A stretch of DNA of 37,860 bases, taken from positions 1-37,860 of the forward strand of contig JADHQF010000002.1 of assembly GCA_016778085.1 (NCBI GenBank). The letters are read 5' to 3'. The position numbers were made by a program, and so were the translations under genes. Positions 24,070-25,588 of the stretch are shown piece after piece (the first letter of the stretch is position 1; each line of letters begins with the position of its first letter). Under the pieces are notes generated by a model, which was not told where the DNA came from, ran no database searches, and saw only the letters and a list, made by a program, of their open reading frames with translations. This DNA is from Luminiphilus sp. Its GTDB lineage: Bacteria > Pseudomonadota > Gammaproteobacteria > Pseudomonadales > Halieaceae.

Positions 24070-24852
24070 ATGAACAATATCCTTTATACGGGGACCTCGG
24101 GGCAGGGCCCTGATCTGATATTGCTGCATGGGCTTTTTGGTCAGGGCGGCAACTTGCGCAGTGTCGCCCGGGCGCTCGAGACGGACTTTTGTGTGCACTG
24201 TCTGGATTTGCCCGATCATGGCCGTTCGCCTTGGCTTGCAGAAGCGTCTCTGGCGACCTATGCCGCGGCAGTGGGTCTCTGGATGGATCAGCACGAGTTA
24301 ATGGCGGCCCACATTCTGGGTCACTCGTTGGGTGGCAAGGTGGCGATGGAGCTGGCGCTGACTGAGCCGGGGCGGGTAGAGAAGTTGGTGGTGGCAGATA
24401 TAGCGCCGGTGACTTATGCCGATCACCACCAAGTGATCCTCGACGCCCTGCAGCAGGTGGCAGCCCGAGGCTGTCAAACAAGAACGGAAGCTGAGGCGCT
24501 GCTGGGCGAGGTGATAGACGATCCCGGCGTAGTGGGGTATCTGCTGATGAGCCTCCAGCGCGGCGCTGAGGGTGAGGTGTTCCAGTGGCGCTTCAACTTG
24601 GCGGGTTTGGCCAGCGCTTATGGCCAACTGCGCGAGGCACCTTCTGAGACGGCGCCGTTTCAGGGCCACACCCTGTTCCTGAAGGGCAGCGAGTCCGCTT
24701 ACATACAGGCATCGCACGAGCGCGAGATTCAAAGGCGCTTTCCCTGCAGTCAGCTCGTTACGGTGCATGAGGCCGGGCATTGGCTTCATATCGACCAGCC
24801 GGAACAATTCAACGGTGCAGTGCGTGGATTTTTACTCGCAGAGGCGGGCTAA
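24070..24852 (+). CDS. Alpha/beta hydrolase (YbfF-like esterase)
   Basis: Start MNNILYTGTSGQGPDLILLHGLFGQ with SD aaagga; LDLPDHGRSPW, HILGHSLGGKVAMEL, EAGHWLHIDQPEQF. Confidence 0.9.
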   Translation: MNNILYTGTSGQGPDLILLHGLFGQGGNLRSVARALETDFCVHCLDLPDHGRSPWLAEASLATYAAAVGLWMDQHELMAAHILGHSLGGKVAMELALTEPGRVEKLVVADIAPVTYADHHQVILDALQQVAARGCQTRTEAEALLGEVIDDPGVVGYLLMSLQRGAEGEVFQWRFNLAGLASAYGQLREAPSETAPFQGHTLFLKGSESAYIQASHEREIQRRFPCSQLVTVHEAGHWLHIDQPEQFNGAVRGFLLAEAG

Positions 24853-25231
24853 GCAGGCGCCTTCAGGACGGGGTTTGGCGGGTTAGCCGAGGTCGGCGGT
24901 GCGAAAATGGTTCGATCCTGAGTCCGATCGATCAAAAGTGTCCACAGATTCTGTGGATAACTCTCTGGATAATTTGTTTAATCACGCCTTCAGGCCCGAA
25001 AAGCCGTCTAAATCAGCGAATTGGTTAAATTTTAACCAACCCTTTAAAAGATAGTAAAAACAGAAAGTTATGGATGATCTATGAGCGGGATTGTCCGGTG
25101 TGTCATATAAATCCCATAAAAATGTCATCGACACGGCGCGTGTGTATAACCATTCGAGGGCGGGTACTACAGAACTGTGACGCCACGCAACCCCATTTCA
25201 GCACTTTTTTAGCCTTCAGGGCAAAAATTTT
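24853..25231. promoter_or_regulatory. Candidate oriC-like / DnaA-binding intergenic element
   Basis: DnaA boxes TGTGGATAA 24952-24960 and TGTGTATAA 25141-25149 (perfect TTATNCACA reversed), TCTGGATAA 24964-24972 (1 mismatch); GATC at 24914, 24926, 24930, 25076; AT-rich tract about 25015-25080. Confidence 0.5.
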
Positions 25232-25588
25232 TCAGTCTCCGCGGTAGCGACACCCAGCGTCACAGGTTTCGCGCACCTCTACCTCAGTGAGTTCGGGCAA
25301 CGCAGGCTTCAGCCGGGTCCAAATCCAGCGACAGAGATTTTCGCTGGTGGGGTTCTCAAGCCCTTCGATGTCATTGAGGTAGTGGTGGTCCAGCTTTTCC
25401 AGCAGGGGATCAAAGGACTGATTAATCACATCGAAATCCATGATCCATCCGGTCTCAGGATCGACTTCGCCCTCGATAGTGATGCGAATGTGGTAGGAGT
25501 GGCCGTGCAGACGCGCACATTTATGGCCCTCCGGGACTTTGGGGAGAAGATGCGCTGCTTCAAAGCGAAAATCTGTGTAGAGCTCCAT
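25232..25588 (-). CDS. queD: 6-carboxytetrahydropterin synthase (PTPS family)
   Basis: Start [67 protein letters not shown]. Confidence 0.93.

Follow-up and report, generated by a model that had tools for sequence, protein, structure and literature searches.

We found that a non-coding segment of DNA from Luminiphilus sp. is probably a DnaA-reactivating sequence (DARS), a DARS2-like variant of the sites DARS1 and DARS2 that turn ADP-DnaA back into ATP-DnaA in Escherichia coli. The segment covers 212 bp (24938-25149, plus strand), from a core of three DnaA boxes to a distal fourth box, and lies in a window of 37,860 nucleotides, the whole stretch that was analysed, which corresponds to positions 1-37,860 of contig JADHQF010000002.1 of a metagenome-assembled genome (MAG) from the Halieaceae (GCA_016778085.1; 1.71 Mb, 72% complete). 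For the order we use the GTDB name Pseudomonadales; NCBI places Luminiphilus in the Cellvibrionales. Our interpretation is based on the anatomy of the module, its spacing, its conservation, its position away from the origin and the presence of genes for its partner proteins.

The core of the module

The core consists of three DnaA boxes with start offsets 0/14/26, of which box I is inverted relative to boxes II and III. Box I (GTGTCCACA, 24938-24946, plus strand), which carries two mismatches in the window and has the perfect sequence TTTTCCACA in most other genera, and the perfect, in Halieaceae nearly invariant box II (TTATCCACA, 24952-24960, minus strand) face each other with 5 bp in between. 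Box III (TTATCCAGA, 24964-24972, minus strand, one mismatch) stands in tandem with box II. The box order, orientation and offsets of DARS1 and DARS2, as read from the MG1655 record, are identical to those in the window, and the offsets are the same in all Halieaceae sequences aligned. The primers that PMC4585315 lists for deleting DARS2 agree with its location in that record (L075). Equal box spacing in both E. coli sites, with box I opposite to boxes II and III, has been described before (PMC5742627), and the core in the window fits the published definition of a DARS core in all these respects (PMC5742627; PMC8682772). Besides the three true loci, 838 kb of sampled sequence contained no trio in the 0/14/26 arrangement with four or fewer mismatches, and other geometries yielded on average 0.016 trios each at up to three mismatches.

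An initial annotation had described the region as an oriC-like cluster. The features that it listed are all present, i.e. the perfect DnaA boxes at 24952-24960 (TGTGGATAA) and 25141-25149 (TGTGTATAA), the one-mismatch box at 24964-24972 (TCTGGATAA), GATC at 24914, 24926, 24930 and 25076, and an AT-rich stretch at 25015-25080 (29% GC). The number of GATC sites is unremarkable (4 observed against 2.3 expected), and since the whole assembly contains only 22 perfect TTATNCACA boxes, two of them inside 200 bp are unusual, though alone not decisive. Overlooked were box I, which completes the trio with the boxes at 24952 and 24964, and the Fis and IHF sites described below.

Conserved sites downstream of the core

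To the right of the core we found a Fis-binding consensus, an IHF-like site and a distal DnaA box at fixed distances from box I. Fifty Halieaceae rows were aligned gaplessly from box I; the rows share common ancestry and the counts derived from them are thus not independent trials. The Fis consensus GGTTAAATTTTAACC (in the window GNNYANNNNNTRNNC, 25023-25037) occurs exactly at +85 in 41 of the 50 rows, 33 rows match the IHF consensus WATCAANNNNTTR at +120 with no more than one mismatch (in the window AAACAGAAAGTTA, 25058-25070, plus strand), and 44 rows have a perfect distal box TTATNCACA at +203 on the minus strand (in the window TTATACACA, 25141-25149), with offsets of 201-214 in 5 more. Other offsets give a mean of 0.01-0.04 rows each. 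Variation of the distal box among relatives is concentrated at the free N position. Immediately after box III a TTTGTT block (24973-24978, plus strand) is near-invariant in Halieaceae at 1.7-1.9 bits per column; it is absent from the E. coli DARS.

The complete module was represented by a gapless alignment of 216 columns and 41 sequences picked from the 50 rows, the distal-box columns of which overstate invariance because most rows with a displaced distal box were omitted. The derived profile matches the window at 24937-25150 (E 4e-38), the window itself being one row of the alignment.

Position on the chromosome and neighbouring genes

In the Luminiphilus MAG a separate contig carries dnaA-dnaN beside rpmH. 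Two perfect boxes occupy the interval from dnaA to rpmH, and this region gave no match to the module profile at E up to 10. In four single-contig relatives (G058, G060, G113 and G001) roughly half the genome separates dif from dnaA, and the module is found at 0.743, 0.740, 0.767 and 0.765 of the origin-to-dif distance, respectively, a non-coding site well away from oriC, as is characteristic of a DARS. The GC skew, sampled in 20 stretches of 20 kb in each of G058 and G001, switches sign only near dnaA and dif (with one weakly discordant stretch in G001), so that the switch opposite dif that marks an oriC is not located at the module; nor does the skew of the window flip at 25 kb.

The module is enclosed by a gene for a YbfF-like alpha/beta hydrolase (24070-24852, plus strand; Abhydrolase_1, E 1e-20) and a queD-like gene of the PTPS family (25232-25588, minus strand; E 4e-38), both pointing at it, and the core lies between these convergent genes in the retrieved Halieaceae loci with both flanks visible. 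It therefore serves neither promoter, and control of queD or ybfF transcription can be ruled out, as both genes end at the module. Beyond the module, the genus alignment shows conserved blocks at 25163-25173 (TACTACAGAA) and around 25196-25211 (GCGCAACCCC plus a T run), which are perhaps the terminators of these genes. Genes for Fis and IHF-beta were identified in all six genomes tested, including the Luminiphilus MAG (Fis in G001 just below the curated cut-off), and a short second DnaA-domain protein of the size of Hda (Hda-like) in every genome searched.

Distribution of the module

Within the family, the core was recovered from 84 of 141 genomes by DNA search and from 96 by a geometry pattern allowing up to three mismatches (67 of the 79 good genomes and 26 of the 28 genera), while the reversed-pattern control of the family search produced no match. 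The records that share the site comprise Luminiphilus MAGs and other Halieaceae, including Chromatocurvus halotolerans and Pseudohaliea rubra. The trio exceeds what chance would give, since it is kept with identical spacing at the ybfF-queD address through the family. At the level of the order, 261 of 395 genomes, representing 101 of 139 genera, contain the core pattern. At the level of the class, 181 of 232 genomes contain a relaxed pattern that was designed to accommodate both DARS cores of E. coli. The control gave zero matches in either case. In other families of the order the loci are flanked by unrelated metabolic genes, and many of these loci again have Fis at +86, IHF at +120 and a box close to +203.

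Of 295 genomes sampled from the order, 275 were matched by a profile based on sequence only (R1), as were 114 of 118 genera; the module alignment had zero matches in 845 kb of reversed sequence. R1 matches genomes outside the class as well, and 20 fetched loci were inspected for the matches outside the order. One family of the same phylum and another class (f202; G779, G750, G791, G760, G826 and G772; loci L162-L173) has one to nine profile matches per genome, and the fetched examples have Fis at +85/86 and several also IHF at +119/120. We tentatively propose, with slightly more doubt than belief, that the fixed module (inverted trio, Fis at +85/86, IHF at +120 and a distal box at about +203) is an ancient DnaA-recharging device, found nearly throughout the Pseudomonadales and outside the class and multicopy in one family.

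In another genome of the class a weak profile match adjoins uvrB, the address of DARS1. Some Halieaceae genomes (G010, G037, G038, G039 and G140) contain two core-pattern sites of differing sequence, 702 bp apart in G140, and these genomes perhaps hold a pair that resembles DARS1 and DARS2. Luminiphilus FRAM18_bin324 (L110 and L115) has two ybfF-queD copies in one MAG, each with its own core; a bin that mixes two strains is a likelier cause than a duplication.

Alternative explanations

The initial annotation had also considered a DnaA-titrating locus, and the part of that suggestion that stands is a control locus that binds DnaA. Plain titration, in which the boxes merely bind and store DnaA, is unlikely: four DnaA boxes within 212 bp of a genome so poor in perfect boxes would suit it, and the E. 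coli DARS and datA titrate as well (PMC12371093), but storage needs neither a fixed inverted 14/12 geometry nor Fis and IHF distances that are constant across the family. The anatomy favours a reactivating site of the DARS type.

A datA-like site, at which DnaA-bound ATP would be hydrolysed with the help of IHF, is very improbable. Like the module, datA is a non-coding DnaA-box cluster with IHF outside oriC, but it has the opposite effect on DnaA and is located near oriC, in contrast to about 0.75 of the replichore here. The inverted 14/12 trio is absent from the datA of MG1655, the boxes of which are arranged around one IHF site in another geometry, and on this difference we reject a datA identity. 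We know of no role of Fis at datA, and the fixed Fis site of the module indicates DARS2. In favour of this reading, the published recipe for datA combines clustered DnaA boxes with an IHF site (PMC5742627).

Similarly, there is very little to be said for a palindromic terminator, or the site of another regulator, between ybfF and queD. On the minus strand boxes I and II can form a 7-bp hairpin with CACTTTTGAT behind it, at the point where the two genes converge; however, the number of terminator-like matches (1) hardly differs from that in shuffled sequence (0.8), other genera lack the T run while their boxes become perfect, and the same module occurs at unrelated addresses in other families. 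The terminator signal is weak and confined to the genus Luminiphilus. Least credible of all is the relocated or secondary chromosomal origin put forward in the initial annotation, for although gammaproteobacterial origins likewise hold DnaA boxes, GATC and AT-rich DNA and use IHF and Fis, it is contradicted and ruled out by the opposition of dnaA and dif and by the skew of the complete relatives, to whose axis the module does not conform, and by the failure of the profile to match the MAG's own dnaA-rpmH region.

Relation to DARS1 and DARS2

As a DARS-type site, the module most resembles DARS2, which is located upstream of mutH. Besides the core, they share IHF and Fis consensus sites next to and downstream of it, and an extra perfect DnaA box about 200 bp away (+211 in DARS2, +203 here). 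DARS2 is known to require IHF and Fis (PMC4245941), and its distal box V is regulated by ATP-DnaA (PMC8682772). The two sites differ in the orientation of the distal box, which is opposite, and in address (mutH versus ybfF-queD) and replichore position. With DARS1 (bioD-uvrB) the module shares the core geometry and a similar relative distance from oriC, but DARS1 lacks both a Fis consensus at +85 and a good IHF site at +120. Another difference from E. coli is that most Halieaceae have a single site per genome.

Several observations weigh against the assignment. In Luminiphilus box I has the two mismatches mentioned above, and the IHF site of the window is degenerate, with two mismatches to the consensus. 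The order of the accessory sites differs from that of E. coli, in which the core of DARS2 is followed by IHF (+93 and +109) and then by Fis (+145), whereas here Fis (+85) precedes IHF (+120). At about 0.75 of the replichore the module is closer to DARS1 (0.66) than to DARS2 (0.41), values calculated with assumed coordinates for oriC and dif of E. coli. In a search of 112 kb, the match of the Halieaceae profile to the DARS1 core was weak (E 0.002) and that to the DARS2 core was not significant (E 4.7), and nhmmer with the same alignment did not report DARS1. Because of these poor matches, the sequences do not prove that the module and the E. coli sites descend from a common ancestor; the shared geometry suggests it.

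In MG1655 a further trio with DARS spacing is present just upstream of mutH (L075 2452-2486; TTATCCCAG, TTATCCACA and TCTTACACC); it has a poor box I and stands about 316 bp away from the core of DARS2. With the Halieaceae profile this trio gives a match at 2462-2606 (E 0.0014), which is better than that of the DARS2 core.

Proposed mechanism and significance

In functional terms a DARS is expected to speed the release of ADP from DnaA, to delay initiation when it is deleted and to stimulate initiation when present in additional copies. The nucleotide exchange at the module and its timing can be sketched by analogy with the work on E. coli. ADP-DnaA would occupy the inverted boxes I and II, 5 bp apart, and the tandem box III. 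Where the AAA+ domains touch head to head, on boxes I and II, ADP would be loosened, after which apo-DnaA would depart and reload with the abundant ATP. IHF at +120 and Fis at +85 would bend the neighbouring DNA and switch the site on at the right time, and the distal box at +203 may permit feedback by ATP-DnaA. In this way the level of ATP-DnaA would rise ahead of initiation at the real origin, which lies near dnaA.

Most of what is known about DARS sites comes from E. coli. Conservation of the DARS2 core was described as specific to those gammaproteobacteria that are related to E. coli (PMC4245941), and in the literature on DARS we found only incidental mentions for Pseudomonas, nothing for P. 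putida and a review for Acinetobacter. The module would add, in marine Halieaceae, a complete DARS2-like arrangement with a different and strictly spaced Fis-IHF layout, and its profile offers a ready way to find such unannotated sites, which are easily mistaken for origins. With profile matches in nearly all sampled genomes of the order and in some beyond the class, an ancestral role of DnaA recharging by DNA sites in bacterial cell-cycle control becomes testable. If the proposed ancient distribution is true, DNA-templated recycling of DnaA would long predate the E. coli lineage, and DARS1 and DARS2 of E. coli would be derived forms.
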